Shown one piece after another: positions 4,467 through 29,840 of a stretch of DNA of 32,551 bases. The notes beneath the pieces were generated by a model. It was not told the DNA's origin. It ran no database searches and saw nothing but the letters and a program-made list of their open reading frames with translations. The translations under genes were made by a program, and so were the position numbers. Position 1 is the stretch's first letter, and each line of letters starts with the position of its first letter. Source of the DNA: Anaerolineae bacterium (GTDB lineage: Bacteria; Chloroflexota; Anaerolineae; Aggregatilineales; Phototrophicaceae); NCBI GenBank assembly GCA_030950085.1, contig JAUZRW010000051.1, positions 1 through 32,551 of the forward strand. The letters run 5' to 3'.

Positions 4467-4931
4467 ATGGAACTAACGGGTAAGTATACATTTGAAGCTG
4501 ACCAGCAAAGCACTTGGGATTTGTTGATGAATACAAAGGCAATTGCTGCTGCGATGCCCGGTGTTGAAGAATTGATTCCAGTAGAAGGCGCAGAAAACCA
4601 ATGGCGTGCCGAAGCCTCATTGAAAATTGGCGCGATTGGCGGCACTTATACAGGTGTCATTAGCATGAGTGAACACGATGAACCGAGCAAATATCGTCTC
4701 ACAGTGGAAGGTGAAGGTCAGGCGAGTATTATTAATGGTACAGCCGTGATTGAACTCCTACCAAATAGCGATGATAGCAATAAAACAACTATCCAATGGG
4801 TAGCCGAGGCGAATATTTCTGGCAAATTAGCGCGTGTCGGGCAGCGTTTGATTAAGGCAACTGCCAATATGATGAGCAAACGCTTTTTTAGCGCCTTGGC
4901 AAAAATGCTCGAAAGTGACAGCACCGAATAA
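4467..4931 (+). CDS. coxG: CoxG-like SRPBCC protein (154 aa)
   Basis: SRPBCC (START-like) fold protein of the CoxG family, found with molybdenum hydroxylases and thought to help anchor or mature the enzyme at the membrane. Features seen: the opening MELTGKYTFEADQQSTWDLL, the loop AAAMPGVEELIPV typical of CoxG, alternating beta strands through residue 115, and a C-terminal helix (about 122-150) rich in Lys/Met/Phe. Length fits the family. AGGA lies 8 nt before the ATG. It precedes coxSLM on the same strand but is separated by a 471-bp repeat-bearing gap, so it may be transcribed independently. Confidence 0.85.
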   Translation: MELTGKYTFEADQQSTWDLLMNTKAIAAAMPGVEELIPVEGAENQWRAEASLKIGAIGGTYTGVISMSEHDEPSKYRLTVEGEGQASIINGTAVIELLPNSDDSNKTTIQWVAEANISGKLARVGQRLIKATANMMSKRFFSALAKMLESDSTE

Positions 4932-5010
4932 TGGCATTTAGTGTAGTTTGGATGATACAGAAACTTTGGCAAGGCACAATAATGTTCTTTAAGAAAATAA
5001 TATGGGTATT

Positions 5011-5077
5011 GTAGGGGCGTACCCGTGTGTGCGCCCGTTGCCGATTCTCGCGGGATGACACATGGGGCATCCCCTAC
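5011..5077. repeat. Repeat bounded by GTAGGGG and CCCCTAC
   Basis: A 67-bp segment with GTAGGGGCG at the left and GGGGCATCCCCTAC at the right, and inner complementary blocks GGGCG/CGCCC. It is a variant of the intergenic palindrome family and lies between coxG and coxS. Similar boundaries are at 21941-21995. Confidence 0.5.
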
Positions 5078-5166
5078 ATTTGACTAGGTGTATTTAATAA
5101 CTGTCGAATCTTATATCTGTGTTTAATTCTTCATCATTGAACCTGCTATCACTTGTATCTCCAAGT

Positions 5167-5265
5167 GTAGAATCTGGAAAGTAATTAGAAATAAAATTTT
5201 GTATTCGTACTGGCGCAGCGCGCTGCGCCCCTACAACCAATTTCCAGAAACTTTCGGGACTCTAC
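5167..5265 (-). repeat. GTAGGGGC-palindrome repeat element, copy 3, with clear terminal inverted repeats
   Basis: Left end GTAGAATCTGGAAAGT and right end, read inward on the other strand, GTAGAGTCCCGAAAGT: 13 of 16 match. The centre is the palindrome GGCGCAGCGCGCTGCGCC followed by CCTAC. At 99 bp with inverted ends it has the form of a small MITE. It occupies the middle of the coxG-coxS gap. Confidence 0.65.
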
Positions 5266-5284
5266 AAAAACATCTTATTTTGAA

Positions 5285-5305
5285 TTATCCCCATTTTTGG
5301 GATAA
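5285..5305. promoter_or_regulatory. Perfect inverted repeat upstream of coxS
   Basis: Arms TTATCCC and GGGATAA are perfect, with a 7-nt spacer CATTTTT, about 100 bp before the coxS start. It could be an operator for a cox-cluster regulator. No T-run follows, so a terminator is less likely. Confidence 0.4.
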
Positions 5306-5333
5306 GATTTATCGACTCAAGCGAAAGGAGACA

Positions 5334-5366
5334 ATGGACGACAAAATATCAAACAAAGAATACTAA
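5334..5366 (+). CDS. Possible 10-codon leader ORF before coxS
   Basis: ATG...TAA encoding MDDKISNKEY, preceded by AAAGGAG with only 3 nt of spacing. It ends 36 bp before coxS. The Shine-Dalgarno is stronger than that of coxS, but such a short frame can be chance. Confidence 0.2.
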   Translation: MDDKISNKEY

Positions 5367-5402
5367 TTCGTTCAGCTAATTTGATGGAGTGTTTTTTTAA
5401 TT

Positions 5403-5870
5403 ATGAAAGTTTCAATGACTGTTAATGGAAAAGGTGTCGAGCGCGATGTCGAGCCGCGGATGCTGCTTGTCCACTTCCTGCGCGAAGAACTCGATATGAC
5501 CGGCACGAAAATTGGCTGTGATACCAGTCAATGTGGCGCGTGTACGGTGCATCTGGATGGCAAGGCGCTCAAATCTTGTACGATGCTGGCGGTTCAAGCC
5601 GATGGCGCAGACATCACGACTATCGAAGGCTTGGCAAATGGCGACCTTCATGTCATGCAAGAATCCTTCTGGGAAAATCACGGTCTGCAATGTGGTTACT
5701 GCACACCGGGTATGATTATGTCTACTACTGCTCTGGTACAAGACAACCCCAATATGTCCGAAGGCGAGATTCGCCATCAGCTAGAAGGCAATCTGTGTCG
5801 TTGCACAGGTTATCACAACATCGTGAAGGCAGTTCAGCAAGCGTCCGAAAAAATGGGAGGGGGTGACTAA
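5403..5870 (+). CDS. coxS: Molybdenum hydroxylase small (2Fe-2S) subunit, CoxS (155 aa)
   Basis: Iron-sulfur subunit that passes electrons between the Mo site of CoxL and the FAD of CoxM. The N-terminal ferredoxin-like [2Fe-2S] cluster is held by C39, C44, C47 and C59 ([10 protein letters not shown]...SC). The C-terminal helical [2Fe-2S] domain has C97/C100 ([10 protein letters not shown]) and C132/C134 ([11 protein letters not shown]). All eight cysteines are present and the length is typical. The stop overlaps the coxL start (TAATG), giving translational coupling. A weak GGAG lies 13 nt before the ATG. The S-L-M gene order is that of form II (BMS) clusters. Confidence 0.95.
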
Positions 5871-8233
5871 TGAGTACCCGCATGTTTGGTTCGGGTATTA
5901 AACGTCGTGAAGACCCGCGCCTCATCACAGGTAAGGCAAAGTACACCGATGATATCAAGCTGCCCGGAACACTTCATATGGCAGTTGTTCGCAGTCCCCA
6001 TGCTCATGCTAATATCAAAGGCATTGATACTTCAGCAGCCGAGGCAATGCCCGGTGTTGTCGCTGTCTATACGGGCGAGGCAATGAATTTGCCGATTCCC
6101 ACAGGCGCTCTGATTCCGGATTGTAATCTCATCACACCAGAACATCCCTCATTGGCGAAAGAAAAAGTGCGCTATGTCGGTGACGGTGTGGCGATTGTGC
6201 TGGCAGAAAATCGCTATCAAGCACAAGATGCCGCCGATGTGGTCAAAGTCGATTATGAAGTGCTAGGCGCTATCATCAATCCGGAAGATGCCACAAAAGA
6301 TGGTGCGCCGCAACTCTTTGATGACGTGCCGAATAATGTTGCTTTCCGTTGGCTTATGGGCGGTGCAGAAAATCAGGAAGCCAGTAACAAAGTGTTTGAA
6401 GCGGCAGATGTGGTTGTTAAAGAACGCATCGTCCAACAACGTTTACAACCCACCACGATGGAACCCCGTGCGGCTCTTGCACAATGGAATGCCGCAACAG
6501 AAGAAATGACCCTCTGGGTGACAACGCAAAATCCGCATATTCATCGTGTGCTATTAAGCGGCATCATCGGTGTACCAGAACACAAATTGCGTATCATTGC
6601 CCCCGAAGTCGGTGGTGGTTTTGGCGCAAAAATTGACCTCTACCCCGATGAAGCGCTCGCTTGTTGGGCTTCGCTACAAACAGGTCGTCCGGTGAAGTGG
6701 ACAGAAACGCGCAGTGAAAATTATGTTGCCATGACTCATGGGCGCGACCATGTGGAATACGTGGAACTTGCCGCGACTAAAGATGGCAAAGTCACGGGAA
6801 TTCGTAGCACGGTTTATGCCGGAATGGGTGCTTACCTGACGACATTTGGTGCGGGTATCCCGACGATTTTACACGCCCTGATTTATTGTGGTGTTTATGC
6901 CTTCGAGAATGCCTTCGCAGATGTCATTGGTGCATTTACCAGTGCAACGCCTGTCGAAGCCTATCGCGGTGCAGGTCGCCCCGAAGCGACATTCCTCGTT
7001 GAACGCCTGATGGATAAGATGGCAAATGCCCTTGATATGGATCCAACAGAATTGCGGCGCAAGAATCTGATTCCAAAATTTGAAGATGGCTATGCAGCCC
7101 CAACCGGAGTCACCTACGATAGCGGCGATTATGAGCCAGCACTCGATAAAGTTCTCGAAATGGCAGGTTATAGCGACTTCCGTAAAGAGCAAGAAGAAGC
7201 GCGCAAAAATGGCAAATATCTCGGTATTGGTGTCACAACTTATACAGAAATTTGTGGTCTTGGTCCCTCAGAGGTCAATGGCGCAATTGGTTTCCAAGCT
7301 GGCGGATGGGAAAGTTCAATTATCCGCATGTCCCCAACTGGTAAGGCACAAGTCTTAATTGGTGTATCGCCACATGGTCAAGGCGGAGCGACATCATTTG
7401 CCCAAATCTTCAGTGATGGCACAGGCATCCCGATGGACGACATCGAAGTCGTACATGGCGATACCAATACTACACCGATGGGCTGGGGGACGTATGGTAG
7501 CCGAAATGCGGCGGTAGGTGGCGCAGCACTGGCTGGCGCGATTACCAAATTCAAAGATAAAGCAAAGGTCATGGCAGCGCACATGCTAGAAGCGGCTGTC
7601 GAAGATATTGAATATGAAGACGGACAGTTATATGTCAAAGGGTCGCCGGACAATGCCAAGGCTATCCAAGAGATTGTCTTGATGAGCCATCTGGGGTGGG
7701 ATATGCCAGCCGGAGCAGAACCTAGCTTTGAAGTCTCAAACTTCTATAATCCGCCCAACTTCGTTTATCCCTTCGGCGCACATATCGCCATCGTAGAAAT
7801 TGACGCAGAAACAGGCACTGTTGAACTCAAACGTTATCTCGCTGTTGATGACTGTGGGCATCAAATTAACCCGATGATTGTTGCCGGGCAGATTCATGGC
7901 GGTCTTGCCCAAGGTATCGGACAAGCATTGTGCGAAGGCTCTATCTATGATGATAACGGGCAATTACTCACTGGCTCAATGATGGATTATGCCGTGCCGC
8001 GTGCCGATATGTTCCCGAACTTTGAACTTGACCATACTGTGACACCCTCGCCACATCAACCGTTGGGTATCAAGGGCGTTGGTGAAACAGGAACAATTGC
8101 TAGTACACCCACAGTTTACAATGCCGTTATGGATGCCTTGAAGCCTTTGAGTGTCGAGTCCGTTGATATGCCACTGACACCTTATCGTGTCTGGGAAGCG
8201 ATTCAAAATGCAAGTAATGGAGGAAGTGCCTAA
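5870..8233 (+). CDS. coxL: Molybdenum hydroxylase large subunit, form II CoxL-like (787 aa)
   Basis: Catalytic Mo-pterin (MCD) subunit of a xanthine-oxidase-family hydroxylase. The N-terminal a/b hammerhead domain spans about 20-135; Mo-cofactor-binding domains follow. The active-site loop reads A364-Y-R-G-A-G-R370. True aerobic CO dehydrogenases (form I) have AYxCSFR with the Cu-binding Cys; that Cys is absent here, so this is form II and CO need not be the substrate. The general-base Glu is E739 in GIKGVGETG. Other family motifs: EVGGGFGAK near 245 and GGLAQGIGQAL near 680. Length is normal. One-base overlaps with coxS and coxM indicate one operon. The true substrate (purine, nicotinate-like, aldehyde or CO) is not determined by sequence. 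Confidence 0.93.
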   Translation: MSTRMFGSGIKRREDPRLITGKAKYTDDIKLPGTLHMAVVRSPHAHANIKGIDTSAAEAMPGVVAVYTGEAMNLPIPTGALIPDCNLITPEHPSLAKEKVRYVGDGVAIVLAENRYQAQDAADVVKVDYEVLGAIINPEDATKDGAPQLFDDVPNNVAFRWLMGGAENQEASNKVFEAADVVVKERIVQQRLQPTTMEPRAALAQWNAATEEMTLWVTTQNPHIHRVLLSGIIGVPEHKLRIIAPEVGGGFGAKIDLYPDEALACWASLQTGRPVKWTETRSENYVAMTHGRDHVEYVELAATKDGKVTGIRSTVYAGMGAYLTTFGAGIPTILHALIYCGVYAFENAFADVIGAFTSATPVEAYRGAGRPEATFLVERLMDKMANALDMDPTELRRKNLIPKFEDGYAAPTGVTYDSGDYEPALDKVLEMAGYSDFRKEQEEARKNGKYLGIGVTTYTEICGLGPSEVNGAIGFQAGGWESSIIRMSPTGKAQVLIGVSPHGQGGATSFAQIFSDGTGIPMDDIEVVHGDTNTTPMGWGTYGSRNAAVGGAALAGAITKFKDKAKVMAAHMLEAAVEDIEYEDGQLYVKGSPDNAKAIQEIVLMSHLGWDMPAGAEPSFEVSNFYNPPNFVYPFGAHIAIVEIDAETGTVELKRYLAVDDCGHQINPMIVAGQIHGGLAQGIGQALCEGSIYDDNGQLLTGSMMDYAVPRADMFPNFELDHTVTPSPHQPLGIKGVGETGTIASTPTVYNAVMDALKPLSVESVDMPLTPYRVWEAIQNASNGGSA

Positions 8234-9084
8234 TGTGGCCCAAAGAATTTGATTATGTACGCGCTTCGTCTGTCGATGATGCGATTCAGCAAACAAGCGA
8301 TAACACGGATGCCAAGATTCTCGCCGGAGGGCATAGCTTGCTCCCCGCGATGAAATTGCGCTTGTCGGAACCGGGCAAATTGGTCGATATTAGCCGTCTG
8401 GCTGACCTCAAAGGCATCAGTGCCAACGGAACACTCTCCATTGGTGCGATGTCTACCCATGCCGAAATCGCTGCATCCGCCGATGTGCAACAGTATTGTG
8501 CGTCCTTGGCGACTGCCTGCGGTATGGTGGGCGACCATCAAGTCCGCAACTTTGGGACATTAGGCGGCAATATCGCTCATGCTGACCCTGCCTCTGACCC
8601 CCCGACAGTTCTTGTAGCTGCCGGGGCAACGATTCATATCAAACGCTCTAGAGGTGAGCGTTCCGTCAGCGCAGAAGACTTCTTCATTGATTTGTTCACG
8701 ACTGATTTGGAAGACGGCGAAGTCATTACCCGTATTGAAGTTCCTAATCTCAGTGGTCACAAAGCGGCTTATGTGAAGATGCCGCATCCAGCCTCTCGTT
8801 ATGCGATTGTCGGTGTCGCGGTTATCCTCGAAATGGATGGCGATACGTGCAAGAGTGCGCGAGTCGCTGTCGGTGGGGCGACTGTGAGTGCTATGCGTGC
8901 ATCGGGCGCGGAAAGTGCCTTGTCAGGCTCGTCACTTGATGATGCGGCGCTCAATGCTGCGGCTTCGGCTGTTCAGTCTGATATTAGCGATGCGCTCATG
9001 GGCGATGTCAGTTACCCCGAAAGTTATCGTCAAGCGATGTCCGGTGTTTATCTCAAACGGGCTGTTAAAGCAGCACTCGGATAA
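8233..9084 (+). CDS. coxM: Molybdenum hydroxylase FAD subunit, CoxM (283 aa)
   Basis: FAD-binding medium subunit that passes electrons from CoxS on to an acceptor. Flavin motifs are A31-G-G-H-S35 (LAGGHSLLPAMK) and T109-L-G-G-N113 (NFGTLGGNIAHADPASDPP), both as in CoxM. The C-terminal CO-dehydrogenase-flavoprotein domain spans about 175-280 (SRYAIVGVAV...). Length is typical. The start overlaps the coxL stop by one base (TAATG). The gene ends in a terminator-like hairpin at 9118, suggesting that coxSLM forms a unit separate from coxD. Confidence 0.93.
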   Translation: MWPKEFDYVRASSVDDAIQQTSDNTDAKILAGGHSLLPAMKLRLSEPGKLVDISRLADLKGISANGTLSIGAMSTHAEIAASADVQQYCASLATACGMVGDHQVRNFGTLGGNIAHADPASDPPTVLVAAGATIHIKRSRGERSVSAEDFFIDLFTTDLEDGEVITRIEVPNLSGHKAAYVKMPHPASRYAIVGVAVILEMDGDTCKSARVAVGGATVSAMRASGAESALSGSSLDDAALNAAASAVQSDISDALMGDVSYPESYRQAMSGVYLKRAVKAALG

Positions 9085-9117
9085 TCACGCGCAGGCACGT
9101 ATGTAAAGACCTTAATG

Positions 9118-9147
9118 GGGGCGTGGCATTGTCGCACGTCCCTTTTG
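9118..9147 (+). terminator. Terminator-like hairpin after coxM
   Basis: GGGGCGTG (9118-9125) and CACGTCCC (9135-9142) pair as 8 bp including one G-U, with a 9-nt loop, followed directly by TTTTGT. It lies 34 bp after the coxM stop. Confidence 0.55.
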
Positions 9148-9208
9148 TATGATTAAGATAAGAGCAAGGCATATCTTGGGTACGACCTGCAAATGGTTTT
9201 TGACCAGC

Positions 9209-9272
9209 GGACGGCATGTATGCCGTCCCTACAGGTCATAATGGTTATGTAGGGACGAGATATATCTCGTCC
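9209..9272. repeat. Double-hairpin repeat between coxM and coxD
   Basis: Two perfect or near-perfect 20-bp hairpins, GGACGGCATGTATGCCGTCC and GGACGAGATATATCTCGTCC, face each other across an inverted CCCTACA/TGTAGGG pair. It has the same architecture as the core of the MITEs at 14745 and 25663 but lacks their outer ends. The 275-bp coxM-coxD gap holds no gene. Confidence 0.65.
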
Positions 9273-9359
9273 GTCATGAATATTTCAAGTACTTGCGATG
9301 CTATTATGTCTTGCCCTGACACGTATAAACAGTCAATGATGGTATTGGTGAAAAAATAA

Positions 9360-10271
9360 ATGATGTTTGATAGTGTGGATTCCGTACAAGAGGCTCTCGC
9401 AAAGCATGATTATATTGCCGAACGGGGCTTATCAACCTCGATTTTTTTAGCTCTAAAGACTGGCAAACCCCTCTTTTTAGAAGGTGATGCCGGAGTGGGC
9501 AAAACAGAAATTGCCAAAGTGCTTTCTGCCATGTTGGATACCGACTTAATTCGCTTGCAATGTTATGAAGGCTTGGATACTAGCACCGCCCTCTATGAAT
9601 GGGATTATGCCTCACAAATGCTGCATCTGCGCCTCATGGAAGCGAGTGGCAGCAACCGTACCGCTATGGAAGGCGAATTGTTCTCGCGGCGCTTTTTGCA
9701 GGCACGCCCTCTGTTGCAGGCGGTTGAAGCAAGCAAAAATGGTCATGTACCTGTGCTGCTGATTGATGAACTAGACCGCAGCGATGAAGAGTTTGAGGCT
9801 TTTTTGCTCGAAATTTTGTCAGATTTTCAGGTGACGATTCCTGAAATTGGTACGATTAAAGCCGAACAACCGCCTGTCGTGATTGTGACTTCTAACCGTA
9901 CCCGCGAGATTCATGATGCCCTCAAACGGCGTTGTCTCTATTACTGGATTGATTATCCGACTTTCCAAAAAGAGTTAGAGATTGTGCGTCGTAAAGCACC
10001 GGAAGTCGAAGAAATTCTCGCACGTCAAATCACGGCTTTTATCCAAGAAATGCGGCGTATGGAATTGTTCAAGCGACCCGGTGTGGCGGAAACGCTGGAT
10101 TGGACGGCGGCGCTGATTGCACTTGACCAAAGCGCCCTCGATTTAGAAATTGTTGAAGATACGCTGGGCGTAATTTTGAAGTATCAAGACGATATCAATA
10201 TGATGGACAAAGAAACATTACAAAACCTACTCGATAGGGCAAAAGTAGAAGCGACTAGAGTGCAAGGATAG
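9360..10271 (+). CDS. coxD: MoxR-type AAA+ ATPase, CoxD (303 aa)
   Basis: AAA+ ATPase of the MoxR/CoxD group. In Oligotropha, CoxD is needed to mature the Mo active site; here it would act with CoxE on the CoxL-type subunit. Walker A is G42-D-A-G-V-G-K-T49; Walker B is LLIDELDR with D136 and E137. A sensor-1-like segment is VVIVTSNRTREI near 180, and KRRCLYYWIDYPT follows, as usual for MoxR. Two consecutive ATGs (9360, 9363) are possible starts; the ribosome binding site is weak. The downstream amidase begins 7 bp after the stop, so the two are cotranscribed. Confidence 0.92.
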   Translation: MMFDSVDSVQEALAKHDYIAERGLSTSIFLALKTGKPLFLEGDAGVGKTEIAKVLSAMLDTDLIRLQCYEGLDTSTALYEWDYASQMLHLRLMEASGSNRTAMEGELFSRRFLQARPLLQAVEASKNGHVPVLLIDELDRSDEEFEAFLLEILSDFQVTIPEIGTIKAEQPPVVIVTSNRTREIHDALKRRCLYYWIDYPTFQKELEIVRRKAPEVEEILARQITAFIQEMRRMELFKRPGVAETLDWTAALIALDQSALDLEIVEDTLGVILKYQDDINMMDKETLQNLLDRAKVEATRVQG

Positions 10272-10278
10272 TGTCATT

Positions 10279-11775
10279 ATGACCTTTGCAGAATATACAC
10301 AATACGATGGATTGGGTTTGGCTGAACTCGTGAAAAAAGGCGAGGTTTCGGCATTGGAATTAGTCGAAACAGCGATTGAGCGCATTGAAACGCATAATCC
10401 GAAAATAAATGCTGTTATTCACAAAATGTACGATGTAGCACGCGAAGCTGCACAGGGCGATTTGCCCGATGGGGCGTTTAAGGGCGTGCCATTTTTGCTC
10501 AAAGACTTGCTCGGAAACTATGCCGGTGAGCCAATTGCTTCAGGCAGCCGCTTCATGAAAGATTATCGCCCGACAGTGCATAGTGAATTGGTCAAACGCT
10601 ATCTGGCAACAGGCGTTGTCGTTGTCGGCAAAACCAATACACCTGAATTAGGACTCGTGCCATTCACTGAACCGGAGGCGTTTGGTGCAACGCGCAATCC
10701 ATGGGATACGAATCACTCGCCCGGCGGCTCTAGTGGTGGTAGTGGAGCGGCTGTTGCGGCTGGATTTGTTCCACTCGCATCAGGGGGCGATGGCGGCGGT
10801 TCAATACGCATTCCGTCTTCTGCTTGTGCCTTATTTGGCATGAAACCCACTCGCGCCCGTACTCCATCGGGTCCCAGTCCAGATGATAATTGGGCAGGAT
10901 TGACTGTCCAACATGTCTTGACACGTTCAGTACGCGATAGTGCCGCGATGTTGGATGCCACAATGGGCGCGGATATCGGCGCACCGTATTATGCACCGCC
11001 ACCACAACGCCCGTATCTTGAAGACGTAAGAACACCGCCTGATAAACTGAAAATTGCCTTCACATCGCTACCTTTTATGGGCAAAACAGTCGATAGTGAT
11101 TGCAAAAAAGCACTGACAACAGCCGTTGCTCTACTGCGTGAATTGGGGCATGAAGTCGTTGAAGCAGCACCGCAAATTGACGGTAAGGCGCTGTCTATTG
11201 CCATGCTGACGATGTTGGCAGGCAAAACGTCGGCGAATATTGATGAAATGGCAGCCTTAGTGGGGCGCAAACCTAAGCGCAATCAATTTGAAGTCATGAC
11301 ATGGGCGCTCTATGTCTACGGCAAGTCTATCAGTGCCAATCAATATGCTAAAGCGATAACGATTCTCAATGCGGCTGGGCGCACAATTGCGCCATTTTTT
11401 GAAACTTACGATGTCTTATTGACACCCACATTGGCAACTCCTCCGGCTGTAATCGGCTCTCTGCAACCCACCGATGCCGAAAAAAGACAGCTTGAACTTT
11501 TAGGGCGCTTACGGGCGGGTTGGGCAATGAAAGCTGCCAAAATGATTGAGCAATTTGCCGAAACATCGTTTGAGTATATCCCGTACCTGCCCGTATTTAA
11601 TATCACCGGACAGCCGGCAATGTCTGTTCCTTTGCATTGGAATGATGTCGGATTACCGATTGGCGTGCAGTTTGTCGGACGCTATGCTGATGAGGCAACA
11701 TTATTTCGTCTAGCAGGTCAATTAGAGCAAGCAAAACCATGGTTTGACCATCGCCCATCAGGATATTGCATCTGA
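10279..11775 (+). CDS. Amidase-signature family amidase (498 aa)
   Basis: Hydrolase of the amidase-signature superfamily, which cleaves carboxamides through a Ser-cisSer-Lys triad. The triad is visible: K75 (PFLLKDLLG), S151 ([10 protein letters not shown]) and S175 ([10 protein letters not shown]). The 24-residue spacing between the serines is canonical. The Gly/Ser-rich signature and KTNTPELG are intact, and length is typical. It is embedded between coxD and coxE, with 7 bp to coxD. AAGGA lies 10 nt before the ATG. Its position suggests it acts on the same substrate chain as the Mo hydroxylase, for example opening an amide produced after ring hydroxylation. That link is inference; specificity cannot be read from sequence. 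Confidence 0.9.
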
Positions 11776-11784
11776 AAAACAGAA

Positions 11785-11862
11785 TGAAGCACATAGAGAA
11801 TCTTAATTCAAAACCATGCTCTGATTCTCTGTGTCTTTGCGTTATGCTTTTTCTAAAAATAA
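11785..11862 (-). repeat. CACAGAG-type imperfect hairpin repeat
   Basis: On the minus strand: AAAAAGCATAACGCAAAG, ACACAGAGAATCAGAG, then TTTTGAATTAAGATTCTCTATGTG. The two arms (AAAGACACAGAGAATC and GATTCTCTATGTGCTTC) are imperfectly complementary. It lies 10 bp after the amidase stop. Confidence 0.55.
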
Positions 11863-11925
11863 CCTGAGTTTTGGATAAACACAGAAAATGTGTTTTTTCG
11901 GCAAATTATGGATTTTCGGGTGTAA

Positions 11926-11945
11926 GGGCGCAATCCATTGCGCCC
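11926..11945. repeat. Perfect palindromic hairpin GGGCGCAAT-CC-ATTGCGCCC
   Basis: A 9-bp perfect stem around CC, followed by CCTACAAC, in the amidase-coxE gap. It is a single-hairpin member of the GTAGGGGC palindrome family. Confidence 0.55.
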
Positions 11946-12032
11946 CTACAACGGACTGTGACCTTTTATGACCTCACATTTTCGATGAAACTCTTAAACA
12001 AAATTCACGTTAAAAATACAATGAAATGACCT

Positions 12033-13289
12033 ATGACTCATAACGATAACAATAAAAAAAGCCAAGTCAAAGGCGTTTATCTCGGTTCGCAAGACAACGA
12101 TACCCACTACGAAGGCGGACAACTCCTGCATAATCTCCTGCTCTTCGGGCGTGTCTGCCGTGCTTTGGGCATGAATGTGACACCGAATCGCATGATGGAA
12201 GTCGCACGGGCATTAGAGCATATTGAACTCGGCAATAAGATAGATTTCTATCATACGCTGCGAACCTTCATGGTGACACATCCCAAAGAATTTGATTATT
12301 ACGATGAGGCGTTCGATATTTTTTGGCGGCGACCCACTGATGAGTGGACAACGCTTGATTTGCGCCCCTTCGAGTCCGAACGTCTCCAGAAGAAAAAGAA
12401 ATTTGTTCCACCGTCTAATTCTAGCCCAAGCGATGATGACACACAGCCGCAAGATGTTGACCCGATGCTAACTGCTGTGGTAGCAACCTATAGTCAACAA
12501 GAATCATTGCGCTATCGAGATTTTGCCGAGATGACCGTACAAGAATTGGAGATGGCAAAGCGCATCATGGAACGTTTGCCCGAATCATTGGGAACACGCA
12601 AAACACGGCGCTACAAACGCGGCAAAGGGCGACAAATAGACTTACGGCGGACATTGCGTGAGAGTATGCGGCGCGGCGGTGATGTCTTGCACTTGCCGAC
12701 TCGTACTCCGAACGAAAAACCGCGCCCTGTTGTGCTGATTTGTGATATTAGCGGCAGCATGGAGCGTTATACCCGTGTGCTACTTCATTTTCTGCACACC
12801 ATGGCTGTCGGGATGACTCAAGTCGAATCATTCGTTTTCAGCACACAATTGACTCGTATCACCCGTCAGATTCGGCAAAAATCAGTCGATGAAGCACTCG
12901 CCGAAGTGGGACGCACGGTGAAGCAATGGGGCGGTGGCACAAACACAGGCGAGTCACTGCATAGCTTCAATTATGATTGGTCGCGGCGTGTCTTAGGGCG
13001 TGGCGCGATTGTCATGATGATTACCGATGGTTGGGATAGGGGCGATAGGGAATTATTAGAGCATGAGGTAGCGCGTTTAGGTCGCTCCTGTGAACGCCTC
13101 ATCTGGCTTAATCCGTTGCTCGATTCGCCGGATTACGAACCGTTGACTCGTGGCGCACAAGCGATTTTACCCTACATTGATGACTTCTTGCCGATTCGCA
13201 ACCTCGCCAACTTAGAAGCGATTATCAAAGCCTTGCAAGGTCTCAATATGCGAACCGCTCTCCCCTATCAGAAGAAATATGCGCGTTAG
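12033..13289 (+). CDS. coxE: CoxE-like VWA-domain protein (418 aa)
   Basis: VWA-domain protein of the CoxE family, the partner of CoxD in maturing Mo hydroxylases. The VWA domain begins near residue 230 with the MIDAS motif D238-I-S240-G-S242 (LICDISGSM). A later metal-site Thr is in the GGGTNTGESL segment near 310, and MITDGWDRGD near 330 completes the fold. The N-terminal part (50-110) is helical and resembles CoxE N-termini; residues 115-145 are a Ser/Asp/Gln linker, and a basic patch RKTRRYKRGKGR lies near 190. No clear Shine-Dalgarno is seen before the ATG. It is separated from the amidase by a 257-bp gap with two repeat hairpins. No coxF/xdhC homologue follows. Confidence 0.9.
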   Translation: MTHNDNNKKSQVKGVYLGSQDNDTHYEGGQLLHNLLLFGRVCRALGMNVTPNRMMEVARALEHIELGNKIDFYHTLRTFMVTHPKEFDYYDEAFDIFWRRPTDEWTTLDLRPFESERLQKKKKFVPPSNSSPSDDDTQPQDVDPMLTAVVATYSQQESLRYRDFAEMTVQELEMAKRIMERLPESLGTRKTRRYKRGKGRQIDLRRTLRESMRRGGDVLHLPTRTPNEKPRPVVLICDISGSMERYTRVLLHFLHTMAVGMTQVESFVFSTQLTRITRQIRQKSVDEALAEVGRTVKQWGGGTNTGESLHSFNYDWSRRVLGRGAIVMMITDGWDRGDRELLEHEVARLGRSCERLIWLNPLLDSPDYEPLTRGAQAILPYIDDFLPIRNLANLEAIIKALQGLNMRTALPYQKKYAR

Positions 13290-25823: not shown

Positions 25824-26636
25824 TTAGCCACTAACAGCCTCATACGAGAGAATAATCGCATCCCCTAGCATCAATGCCTGACCGGGCTGCAACTTGACTG
25901 TACTTTGTATGCGTGCGCCACTATTGATGCGTGTGCCGTTTGTACTGCCTAAATCTTCGACAGTATAACCGTCACCTTGCCATTTTAGACGCAAATGATA
26001 GCGACTGACTTCGGGGTCTTCAATCGAAATATCATTCGTGGCATCGCGTCCAAGACTGAGGGTATCGCCTACTAATTTGTACATTTTATTGAGTTGCGGT
26101 CCCCGTCGTACCACAATATAAAAACCGGATTCCGTTGGCATGACAGTTCGCGTATAAGCAGCTTGTGGTGGATTATTGGGTTCTGCTTCTTCAACGGACG
26201 CTGTATGGGTTGGGTCAGGGCGCTTGATTTGTGCTTGTGGAACAGGGGCAATCTCTAGCAAGCGCGGCAATTCCCGTCCGAAGTAATCCCAGAAGTGACC
26301 GCGAGTCGTGAAGCTATTGACATCGAATTGTTCTAATGTATTGAGGCGTGGGTGCATTTTCCCCGGTGCGAATTTGACTGGAATAACCGCAATACCAAAC
26401 CCTAATGCCAAAGCCCACTCATACGTCACAAAAGTAGAATCGACGGATGCCGGTGTCACAATGACAATCAGGGCATCCGAAGCCCGAATCGCATCATCAA
26501 TATCAAAGCGCCAATCTTGACCGGGACGTGGATTGGGGTCAATCCACGGTTTATAACCGATTCGCAGTAATTGGTCTTGCATATTTGCCATATGGCGACT
26601 GTCTTTGGGCGAGTAGGAAATGAAGATGTGTTTCAT
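25824..26636 (-). CDS. TIR-FHA two-domain protein (270 aa)
   Basis: N-terminal TIR domain (1-130): FISYSPKDSRHMANMQDQL, then PWIDPNPRPGQDW and ALIVIVTPASVDSTFVTYEW. The Glu of the NADase-type position is E73. A Pro/Thr/Glu linker (132-170) leads to an FHA domain (172-265) with G196-R197, S211-R-Y-H214 and G230-S-T-N-G-T235, all the phosphothreonine-binding residues. No membrane segment. The chosen ATG 26636 has GAGAAAG just upstream and begins directly with the TIR strand; the longer frame to 26717 adds an unrelated tail. Role: phosphopeptide-controlled TIR effector or adaptor in the same signalling set as the PP2C and kinase-like genes nearby; enzymatic activity is inference. Confidence 0.88.
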   Translation of the reverse strand: MKHIFISYSPKDSRHMANMQDQLLRIGYKPWIDPNPRPGQDWRFDIDDAIRASDALIVIVTPASVDSTFVTYEWALALGFGIAVIPVKFAPGKMHPRLNTLEQFDVNSFTTRGHFWDYFGRELPRLLEIAPVPQAQIKRPDPTHTASVEEAEPNNPPQAAYTRTVMPTESGFYIVVRRGPQLNKMYKLVGDTLSLGRDATNDISIEDPEVSRYHLRLKWQGDGYTVEDLGSTNGTRINSGARIQSTVKLQPGQALMLGDAIILSYEAVSG

Positions 26637-26737
26637 AAAACTTTCTCTCGATGATAAGCAGTGAGCCTTTATTCTATAGGATAACGCCAAATAGCAAAAA
26701 ATACCGTATTGATTCATCTTGATTGTTTAACTATAAA

Positions 26738-27188: not shown

Positions 27189-29840
27189 ATGACGATTGCA
27201 TTAGACACTATCGGGCGGCTTCCTGTTGAGGGAGATAATGCTGCCATTGCCACACAAACCCTTAACATCGGCACAGTGATTCAATACGGTCAAACGACAT
27301 TTGAGATTTCGCACGCCATTTTAGAAGGACACCGTTTCGCTATTGAACCGATTATGGCGGGTGATGATATCATGTCTTGGGGATTGCCCTTTGGCAAGGC
27401 AATAAAAGATATTCAGCAAGGTGAGTATCTGGTGAATCAAGGCGTAATTACTGAATTAGGGCGACGTTCGATTGATTTTGAACTGCCCACAGAAGCCAAC
27501 TTCACCGATACGATAGCACCCTTTGTCTTTGACACAGATACTTTCGTAGCGGCTGAACAAGTAGCACGCTATGACACCATGCGGACATTCATGGGCTATC
27601 AACGGTCTGGCAAGCGCGGTGTCGGGACGCGCAATATGATTGTCTTACTTGGCACATCCTCACTAACGGCTGGCTTTGTCCGCACACTAGAAACGTATTT
27701 CAAAACACGGTTAGCAGATTACCCTCATATTGACGGAATCGTCGCTGTTGCCCATACCGAAGGCGAACATCCTAATCCCAATAATCGAGATATGTTGCTG
27801 CGAACCCTTGCCGGATTTATGGTGCATCCTAATGTGGCGGCAGTCTTGGCTGTTGATTATGGGACAGAGGCTATCAATAACGAGGCAGTACAAGCCTATA
27901 TTGCAGAAAACAAGTATCCGATAGATGACGTGCCGCATCACTTCATGTCACTATCAAAGTCATTCAAGGCGAGTATGGAAGCCGCAACTGAAAAAGTTAA
28001 CGCATGGTTGCCGATAGTGAATACCATGCAGCGTACAGAACAACCCTTGAGCGAACTTAAGATTGCATTGCAATGTGGCGGCTCGGATGCCTTCTCTGGT
28101 GTGAGTGGTAATCCGCTTGCGGCATGGGTCGCCCACGAGCTTATCCGCTATGGTGGCTCGGCTAACCTTGCCGAAACCGATGAACTGATTGGAGCCGAGT
28201 CTTATATTCTCGATAAAGTGAAAGATATTGAAACATCGCAAAAATTCTTGCGAACGGTGGCGCGTTTTGTGGAACGCACAGAACGACATGGACACTCCGC
28301 AGAAGGTAATCCATCAGGCGGCAATAAATATCGTGGTCTCTATAATATCTACCTAAAATCACTGGGCGCGGCGGCAAAACGGCATCCCGATGTGCGCCTA
28401 GATGCAGTCATTGATTATGGTGAAGCGATGACCGACGCTGGCTATTATTTCATGGATAGTCCCGGCAATGATTTAGAGAGCATCGCCGGACAAGTGGCTG
28501 CCGGCTGCAATATGATTTATTTCGTGACAGGCAACGGCTCAATTACCAATTTCCCCTTTGTGCCGACGATTAAAATTGTGACTACCACACGCCGTTACGA
28601 ATTGCTTGCTGACGATATGGATGTTAATGCTGGAGTCTATCTTGACGGCACACCAATAGATGAAGTCGGCGCACAAACCCTTGACCTGACAGTCAATATT
28701 GCATCGGGGCAAAAATCTGCTGGCGAAAAAGCGCATCATGCCCAAGTACAAATTTGGCGCAATTGGCAACAGACGGAAAATATCGTCAGCAGCATCAAGC
28801 AGGTCGAACGCAGTGGACACCCTCTATCTATCGAAAAAACAGACATACCAGATATCTCGTTTGAAGCCTATCAAACAAAGAACGGTATCGCCTCTGACCA
28901 AATTGCTTTAATTTTGCCGACAAGTCTCTGTAGCGGACACATTGCACGCATGGCAACCGAGCATCTCAATACACAAGAGTTAGGGCGCGATAAAGGCATT
29001 TCGCGCTTTGTCACACTGGTACATACAGAAGGCTGTGGTGTATCGACTGAACGTGAATTTGAAGCGACGATACTCGGCTATCTGACACACCCTCTGGTAC
29101 GTTTTTGTGTACTGCTAGAGCATGGTTGCGAGAAAACCCACAATGGCTATATGCGCCAATTGATGGCAAAAGCAGATGTGGATATTGCGCCGTTTGGTTG
29201 GGCAAGTGTGCAAATGGATGGTGGTATTCAGGCGGTGCTGCACAAGATGGAAAACTGGTTTCATCATCAGGTCACACAGGCTGAGTCATTGCCACAAAAA
29301 ATTGTTGGACTTGAGGCTGTGCGTGTCGGATTGTTGACTCGCAGTGCTATCGACACAAATTTAGCGCACGAGTTGACACAACTCACACGGCAGATTGTCA
29401 GCGCAGGCGGCACAGTGGTTATCCCCGAAAACGATAATCTGATACAGCACAGTGATTTTCTACCAGAATTAGGCTCTGAGTGGGAGTCATCGCTTGCTTA
29501 TGCCCAACAAGCTCTGACAAGTGGTCTGCATATGATGGATATGCCGACTGAACATTGGGGCGAAACCCTCACGGGACTAGGGGCGGCAGGTGTCGAAGTG
29601 ATGTTGGCATTAACGGATGGTTTGCCATTAGCGAGTCACCCTATGATTCCGGTTTTGCAAGTGGCGGCTGATAGAAGTTTAGCATCAGATTTTGATATGC
29701 TCTCAGATGCCGAGTCATGGTCGGTGCGCTTGCGTGAGATGTTAATCGCTGTCTTATCGCGCCAATATACGCCGCAACAAAATAAGTATGCCAATGTCAA
29801 TTTCCAGATTACACGCGGTAGGTTAGGCGTTTCGTTGTAA
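27189..29840 (+). CDS. UxaA/GarD-type sugar-acid dehydratase with an internal duplication (883 aa)
   Basis: Related to altronate/galactarate dehydratases, which remove water from aldonic or aldaric acids. Order: SAF domain (1-95); UxaA copy 1 (about 125-500); UxaA copy 2 (about 560-850). Copy 1 N-lobe has lost all three family cysteines: L159, E193 (HTEGEH) and T226 (YGTE). Its C-lobe is normal: Q295-C-G-G-S-D, AETDELIGAES, MDSPGND and GQVAAGCN, though MDxNCG reads MDVNAG. Copy 2 N-lobe keeps C581 (TSLCSG), C616 (HTEGCG) and C647 (HGCE), while its C-lobe lacks QCGGSD but keeps MDMPTEHWGETLTGLGAAG. Usual UxaA is about 500 aa. The two halves are thus complementary. A short AGG precedes the ATG. 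It is alone on its strand; sugar-catabolic neighbours are absent. Confidence 0.85.
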   Translation: MTIALDTIGRLPVEGDNAAIATQTLNIGTVIQYGQTTFEISHAILEGHRFAIEPIMAGDDIMSWGLPFGKAIKDIQQGEYLVNQGVITELGRRSIDFELPTEANFTDTIAPFVFDTDTFVAAEQVARYDTMRTFMGYQRSGKRGVGTRNMIVLLGTSSLTAGFVRTLETYFKTRLADYPHIDGIVAVAHTEGEHPNPNNRDMLLRTLAGFMVHPNVAAVLAVDYGTEAINNEAVQAYIAENKYPIDDVPHHFMSLSKSFKASMEAATEKVNAWLPIVNTMQRTEQPLSELKIALQCGGSDAFSGVSGNPLAAWVAHELIRYGGSANLAETDELIGAESYILDKVKDIETSQKFLRTVARFVERTERHGHSAEGNPSGGNKYRGLYNIYLKSLGAAAKRHPDVRLDAVIDYGEAMTDAGYYFMDSPGNDLESIAGQVAAGCNMIYFVTGNGSITNFPFVPTIKIVTTTRRYELLADDMDVNAGVYLDGTPIDEVGAQTLDLTVNIASGQKSAGEKAHHAQVQIWRNWQQTENIVSSIKQVERSGHPLSIEKTDIPDISFEAYQTKNGIASDQIALILPTSLCSGHIARMATEHLNTQELGRDKGISRFVTLVHTEGCGVSTEREFEATILGYLTHPLVRFCVLLEHGCEKTHNGYMRQLMAKADVDIAPFGWASVQMDGGIQAVLHKMENWFHHQVTQAESLPQKIVGLEAVRVGLLTRSAIDTNLAHELTQLTRQIVSAGGTVVIPENDNLIQHSDFLPELGSEWESSLAYAQQALTSGLHMMDMPTEHWGETLTGLGAAGVEVMLALTDGLPLASHPMIPVLQVAADRSLASDFDMLSDAESWSVRLREMLIAVLSRQYTPQQNKYANVNFQITRGRLGVSL

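Follow-up and report, generated by a model that had tools for sequence, protein, structure and literature searches.

Complementary losses in the two copies of a fused UxaA/GarD-type protein suggest a covalent pseudo-dimer with one shared active site

UxaA (D-altronate dehydratase) and GarD (galactarate dehydratase) share the domains GD_AH_second and GD_AH_C (COG2721; here N-lobe and C-lobe), and ordinary members of the family hold a single copy of these in open frames of roughly 390-640 amino acids (aa). Here we analyse an 883-aa protein encoded on a 32,551-nt stretch of an Anaerolineae bacterium (GenBank assembly GCA_030950085.1, contig JAUZRW010000051.1; this whole stretch is called the window), in which the family motifs are distributed between two copies within a single chain, as in its relatives of about 880-900 aa. 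Copy 1 shares the ordinary layout of an SAF-like, a second and a C-terminal domain, and the whole fused chain holds the four-cysteine set and most of the conserved C-lobe sites of the family, each copy having lost a part that the other retains.

A characterized enzyme for comparison is D-arabinonate dehydratase C785_RS13685, whose Cys 134, 173, 208 and 276 are conserved in the superfamily except in sulfolactate sulfo-lyase and have been proposed to bind one iron; its substrates are D-arabinonate and, with weaker activity, D-altronate, L-fuconate and L-galactonate, and the passages of that account drawn on here do not describe it as a double protein (PMC6336799). The same passages describe the sulfolactate sulfo-lyase SuyAB as heteromeric and lacking the conserved Cys, and name an L-fuconate dehydratase of 'heteromeric structure' from Paraburkholderia mimosarum without showing its make-up (PMC6336799). 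As far as the literature consulted goes, the evidence for the iron site of these dehydratases consists of conserved Cys, mutants and electron paramagnetic resonance, not of an iron-bound structure. A parallel outside the family is the monomeric herpesvirus dUTPase, likewise a chain of roughly double size that is reported to have arisen by gene duplication, in which, according to the parts of the account used here, the motifs shared within a homotrimer were rearranged to give one site per chain; it is an unrelated enzyme of other chemistry, and its path led from trimer to monomer, in contrast to the presumed path from dimer to pseudo-dimer considered here (PMC8961515). Literature searches, with paywalled work outside their reach, found no published description of a fused or split UxaA. 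The labels 'SuyB-like', 'NPxPGN', 'site A/B' and 'A/B genes' used below are working names for grouping.

Complementary losses within one chain

Profile comparisons confirmed that, at the level of sequence, the protein joins a UxaA/GarD-type chain (copy 1) to a second UxaA copy without the SAF domain (copy 2). In the piece comprising residues 1-529, Pfam matched GD_AH_second (1.9e-27) and GD_AH_C (1.1e-79) in domain order, and the SAF-like domain at residues 16-81 was recognized by its similarity to altronate hydrolase 3k3s (phmmer, 4e-7; VIA-align to 3k3s_A, Z 13.8). Residues 530-883 alone matched GD_AH_second above the curated cut-off (1.4e-10) and GD_AH_C below it (5.6e-4), while the Pfam search gave no SAF match in this part. 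With hhalign, where E-values refer to single pairwise comparisons, copy 2 (residues 548-883) aligned over both lobes with the ordinary family (99.7%, E 3.7e-27) and with the profile of copy 1 (99.6%, E 7.5e-24), which bears out the statement of the initial annotation that the second half aligns with the first across both lobes and answers the profile check that it had proposed. Against TIGR03248, the model for galactarate dehydratase proper, the protein scored 198.5 bits, below the curated cut-off of 730.85.

The four conserved Cys of UxaA (C132/C166/C199/C264) align with L159/E193/T226/C296 in copy 1 and with C581/C616/C647/717 in copy 2, position 717 being mostly Ser or Thr among homologues. 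Across 55 non-redundant fused proteins (54 plus the window protein, after removal of identical and over-97%-identical rows), none has Cys at 159, 193 or 226, whereas C296, C581, C616 and C647 as well as residues 296-300 of QCGGSD are present in all 55; two plasmid-borne copies follow the same pattern. The set of three N-lobe Cys plus the QCGGSD Cys that marks the family thus occurs in neither copy and only in the whole chain. What the initial annotation had read from the window protein, namely three N-lobe Cys lost from copy 1 but kept in copy 2, and QCGGSD kept in copy 1 but lost from copy 2, therefore holds throughout the fused form, and the loss in the copy 2 C-lobe reaches further than noted, since the NPxPGN...GG segment is wholly absent there as well. 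Its counterpart in copy 1 reads NPSGGN in an alignment of 45 fused relatives. The complementary loss is constant and widespread, with homologues in at least six phyla by deposited names.

To describe the partition beyond the Cys, canonical sites were defined as those conserved in 90% or more of 41 ordinary proteins (80 canonical rows thinned by removing those 80% or more identical; L045, a broken fused gene, L083, with its lobes in different frames, and the contig-edge fragments L110, L111 and L057 were left out), and a site was counted as kept when present in 90% or more of the 55 fused proteins. The 17 N-lobe sites obtained in this way are divided evenly: six are kept only in copy 1 (G136, R139, G146, R148, N149 and N215), six only in copy 2 (C581, C616, G646, C647, E648 and Q675), three in both and two in neither, with the copy 1 counterparts of G646 and E648 still partly retained (78% and 85%). 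The 60 C-lobe sites are distributed one-sidedly, 33 being kept in copy 1 only, nine in both, one in copy 2 only and 17 in neither, so that copy 1 keeps 42 of the 60. The N-lobe itself is hence partitioned between the copies, and the retained pieces are finer than N-lobe versus C-lobe. The division of labour by lobes that had been suggested at first stands insofar as the complementary degeneration is constant, but has to be redrawn at a finer scale, as the N-lobe of copy 1 retains its GxxGxRN motif.

Two further features of the C-lobes deserve mention. In copy 1, several canonical residues are replaced by other residues that are invariant in all 55 fused proteins (UxaA G350 by R382, T354 by N386, R416 by N449, G421 by N454 and N432 by T466), which, judged by alignment, may point to a different or shifted substrate. 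In copy 2, the C-lobe (window 29298-29840) shows a separate set of residues that do not vary among the 45 aligned relatives (H817, Q824, F872, Q873, R876, G877, G880 and S882), which argues that it is under constraint and not in mere decay.

A composite active site and its alternatives

We consider it probable that the fused protein represents an iron-dependent sugar-acid dehydratase of the UxaA/GarD type in the form of a covalent pseudo-dimer, with one site kept across both copies and the other decayed. In the ancestral homodimer, each active site would probably have been shared between subunits, the N-lobe of one subunit giving three Cys plus Glu and Gln, and the other subunit giving the QCGGSD Cys, the NPxPGN loop, the C-lobe substrate residues and the GxxGxRN motif of its N-lobe. 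With two copies in one chain, one site could be retained while the other decayed: the retained site A would consist of GxxGxRN and the C-lobe (C296) of copy 1 together with C581, C616, C647, E648 and Q675 of copy 2, and the lost site B would have been formed by the now Cys-less N-lobe of copy 1 and the copy 2 C-lobe that lacks QCGGSD and NPxPGN. The four retained Cys would bind iron, which would help to remove the hydroxyl group at C3 of an aldonate, and the product of the presumed dehydratase reaction would be a 2-keto-3-deoxy acid. Matched by spacing, the first three Cys of the D-arabinonate dehydratase would correspond to those of the N-lobe and the fourth to that of QCGGSD; as the former lie in copy 2 and the latter in copy 1, the site is incomplete within either copy, and a site formed across the copies is complete.

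Support for such a composite site comes from nature's own separation of the halves. In the Chloroflexota order that includes genomes G331 and G437 (11 genomes), seven genomes carry two separate genes, A and B, three only A and one only B, the four genomes with one half being 77-89% complete and the seven with both 85-96%. Gene A has the CCC N-lobe and a degraded C-lobe, whereas gene B has no triad Cys, an intact ECGGSD or QCGGSD and NPTPGN. The pairs are adjacent in two genomes (G437 and G476, where gene A combines the Cys triad with ECGGYD and lacks NPxPGN) and lie on separate contigs in the remaining five. All 17 N-lobe sites are present in each of the ten A genes, and eight of these genes keep 40-46 of the 60 C-lobe sites; in the other two (G679 and G680, 332-aa frames) the match to the C-lobe profile is confined to its second half, and both QCGGSD and NPxPGN are missing, a remnant that resembles copy 2. 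The B genes keep 53-56 of the 60 C-lobe sites and 8-13 of the 17 N-lobe sites, the triad being absent. These similar complementary losses lend strong support to the claim of the initial annotation that there is one composite site per chain, in effect a covalent heterodimer, and the composite site, now resting on a second natural case, appears to be the best explanation of the sequences; its trans geometry is what we infer.

AlphaFold2 modelled the whole chain with a predicted local distance difference test score (pLDDT) of 83.6 and a predicted template modelling score (pTM) of 0.86, and residues 6-528 (copy 1) of the model have the GarD fold (VIA-align to 6u7l_D: Z 42.5, 439 aligned residues, rmsd 3.5). 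Stretches with pLDDT below 50 include loops 299-304, 366-388 and 615-620, which contain conserved motif residues of both copies. GarD itself dimerizes via its second domain and has a Ca2+ site in the C-terminal one.

Some observations weigh against the cross-copy reading. The eight full-length A genes retain the fourth Cys (UxaA C264) and hence have all four Cys in one chain, and their losses fall in substrate loops, such that there is no clean division of the four Cys in these pairs. Furthermore, AlphaFold2 modelled residues 285-703, i.e., the copy 1 C-lobe, the linker and the copy 2 N-lobe, with a pLDDT of 71.5 and a pTM of 0.53 and showed no confident packing of the two lobes; this result speaks neither for nor against packing, since in this fragment the C-lobe itself, separated from its own N-lobe, folded with lower confidence. 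Model residues 1-239 (C-lobe) were placed on 6u7l (VIA-align, Z 23.0).

It is unlikely, in our estimate, that copy 1 is instead a complete enzyme that functions independently of the Cys, in the manner of SuyB-like chains, and that copy 2 serves as a structural or regulatory, non-catalytic iron-binding module. Cys-less single-chain members without a known partner do exist (KCGxSD types), and sulfolactate sulfo-lyase is an exception to the conserved Cys in the passages cited above (PMC6336799), but the SuyB-like chains, which lack the triad here as well, have KCGxSD and NPVPxN where copy 1 has QCGGSD and NPSGGN, and the other Cys-less stand-alone rows carry KCGxSD and/or NPVPxN (L209 has CGGSD but NPVPAN). 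Copy 1, by contrast, has CGGSD in 55 of 55 fused proteins and NPSGGN in the alignment of 45. Among 115 single-chain rows (only exact duplicates removed; the broken fused gene L045, in two pieces, and the L131 fragment included), 91 have CGGSD and NPxPGN, and 84 of these also have the Cys triad; the seven without it are six B genes and L045. In these 115 rows plus L214, an intact CGGSD/NPxPGN C-lobe in a chain without the Cys was seen solely in B genes and fused proteins. Besides its Cys, copy 2 also has E648, Q675 and H612 as invariant residues.

Slightly less probable still is that ordinary members have a cis site and that the fused protein swapped domains after duplication, creating a trans site only here. 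The trans site of ordinary members is something we infer rather than read from coordinates, and copy 1 by itself can be superposed on a single GarD chain, as this alternative would have it; yet separately encoded pairs of another lineage show similar complementary losses, for which the simplest explanation is that sites are shared between subunits already in the ordinary homodimer. That the fused protein is no longer a dehydratase and has adopted another role, e.g., in binding or regulation, is very improbable, since the invariant replacements in the copy 1 C-lobe that could speak for it fit a shifted substrate, the motifs of one site are strongly conserved, and the gene is linked to uxaC-uxaB-type genes (L003), to a Pantoea operon and, in Paenibacillus, to an L-fucose-type oxidative pathway with no other dehydratase recognized.

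Origin, distribution and likely substrates

Returning to the pseudo-dimer, the question arises whether the fused form descends from a gene pair. In the C-lobe tree (the trees took in 21 of the fused proteins), copy 1 formed one group (100/100), located outside the SuyB-like rows, and the A and B genes another (95/88), with a branch of 99/97 between them; because of this separation, fusion of an existing A/B pair is disfavoured. In the quick tree of the N-lobes, copy 1 and copy 2 grouped together at a Shimodaira-Hasegawa-like approximate likelihood ratio (SH-aLRT) support of 80, with long branches, and A and B at 99. Origin of the fused form by tandem duplication, as put forward in the initial annotation, rather than by the joining of two paralogues, and of the two-gene pair by a separate duplication would thus be favoured by the trees, with modest support. 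The approximately unbiased (AU) tests on the quick trees speak against drawing this line too sharply, as a clade uniting the fused with the two-gene forms is not rejected by them (p = 0.071 for copy 1 + B; p = 0.209 for copy 1 + A + B). On balance we lean towards complementary decay of the shared site having occurred at least twice in UxaA/GarD, as a fused chain over many phyla and as two genes in one Chloroflexota order.

The search for other homologues of about 880 aa that had been suggested as a check yielded 45 fused relatives in one scan of genome contigs, 44 of them proteins of 886-904 aa and one (L045) a broken frame. By deposited names they belong to Paenibacillus (33), Halalkalibacter (2), Aquibacillus (2), Chloroflexota-type metagenome-assembled genomes (4), Poribacteria (2), Deinococcales (1) and Acidobacteria (1). 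The fused gene was also found on plasmids of Rubrobacter and Pantoea, the two plasmid copies being publicly annotated as 'UxaA family hydrolase'. In the class of the window's organism, the fused form was recognized in 11 of 199 genomes, in 13 places (judged by match length and open frame; the frame in G136 is incomplete). Paenibacillus pectinilyticus has an ordinary and a fused UxaA in the same genome (frames of 501 and 902 aa), whereas the window's genome (97% complete), with one protein match and one GD_AH_C match, showed no second UxaA copy that could act as a partner.

Gene neighbourhoods give hints at the substrate. At L003 the gene order is glucuronate isomerase - tagaturonate reductase - fused gene, corresponding to the D-altronate route, and a second fused copy in the same genome (L173) is preceded by a gene whose N-terminus is near-identical to that reductase. 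The 33 Paenibacillus loci have as neighbours an aldo/keto reductase (23), a fuconolactonase-like protein (7), a short-chain dehydrogenase/reductase (5), an FAH hydrolase (5) and LutA-like, LutB and LutC-like proteins (9, 9 and 6, respectively), each family having been identified from one representative. The PDB relatives of the aldo/keto reductase are L-galactose dehydrogenases, and the FAH hydrolase is near L-2,4-diketo-3-deoxyrhamnonate hydrolase. We read these neighbours, from their sequence relationships, as an oxidative pathway of the L-fucose type that leads to pyruvate and lactate, the fused protein being the one dehydratase recognized in it; exact substrates are not fixed by this, as the NCBIfam scores of the lactonase and the FAH hydrolase lie under the equivalog cut-offs. 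On the Pantoea soli plasmid (L241), the row is GntR regulator - fused UxaA - FAH hydrolase - 2-keto-3-deoxygluconate permease.

Substrates of L-fuconate/D-altronate configuration are most likely. D-altronate and L-galactonate share the C2-C4 configuration of D-arabinonate, and weak activity on L-fuconate is reported, in the passages used here of the D-arabinonate dehydratase account (PMC6336799). This pathway assignment has its own counter-evidence: pathway genes lie near the fused gene in a minority of lineages, and most non-Paenibacillus loci, judged from the starts of translations, are without recognized pathway genes, the exceptions being L003/L173, Pantoea and perhaps Rubrobacter. The window's own fused gene stands among unrelated genes without pathway neighbours, and tagaturonate reductase gave no match in that genome. 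Elsewhere in the genome are a lactonase 64% identical to that of Paenibacillus and an FAH hydrolase 56% identical to the Paenibacillus one over residues 76-302, along with only distant aldo/keto reductases (best E 2e-15). Given the lactonase and the FAH hydrolase, and no match to tagaturonate reductase, an L-fuconate-like substrate would be the better guess for the window's organism.

Mapped features and implications

The features of the fused gene and the loci of the two-gene pairs are listed in the table.

Table. Coordinates of the fused gene and its parts in the window, and loci of the two-gene pairs
Feature	Position	Strand	Remark
Coding sequence, fused double UxaA-type dehydratase, 883 aa	27189..29840	+	ATG start
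SAF-like domain, residues 16-81, copy 1 only	27234..27431	+	Pfam SAF E 0.15, under cut-off
Copy 1 N-lobe (GD_AH_second), residues 136-277	27594..28019	+	GxxGxRN and H189 kept; three Cys gone
L159 codon, family Cys position (UxaA C132)	27663..27665	+	lost
E193 codon, family Cys position (UxaA C166)	27765..27767	+	lost
T226 codon, family Cys position (UxaA C199)	27864..27866	+	lost
Copy 1 C-lobe (GD_AH_C), residues 287-526	28047..28766	+	intact
QCGGSD, residues 295-300	28071..28088	+	C296 putative fourth iron ligand; invariant in the alignment of 45
Copy 2 N-lobe (GD_AH_second), residues 574-688	28908..29252	+	three Cys, H612, E648 and Q675 kept; GxxGxRN not
C581 codon	28929..28931	+	putative iron ligand
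C616 codon	29034..29036	+	putative iron ligand
C647 codon	29127..29129	+	putative iron ligand
Copy 2 C-lobe, residues about 704-876	29298..29816	+	QCGGSD and NPxPGN...GG segment lost; some scaffold positions kept
Two-gene pairs	L185:3197-4360 + 4507-5670; L186; L198+L135; L199+L138; L200+L137; L202+L127; L224+L214		

Other observations were made alongside. In the window, positions 4467-13289 hold a molybdenum hydroxylase cluster (CoxG, three xanthine-dehydrogenase/CO-dehydrogenase-type subunits, an AAA ATPase, an amidase and a CoxE-like protein), and positions 25824-26717 encode a protein in which a TIR and an FHA domain are joined. Genome G282 has a tandem SuyB-like pair (L187:4225-5415 + 5502-6695), both genes Cys-less (KCGHSD and KCGYSD), and seven GD_AH_C matches in all.

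The natural complementary losses indicate which subunit supplies which residue, and predict a trans site. If decay of the shared site has indeed occurred at least twice, dehydratases of this family would use an inter-subunit site for iron and substrate, and each pair would be an obligate heterodimer in which one of the two sites works. The fused chain would then be a bacterial case in which fusion or pairing freezes an asymmetric, one-site dimer, and some proteins annotated only as 'UxaA family hydrolase' may depend on a partner or a second half for their function.

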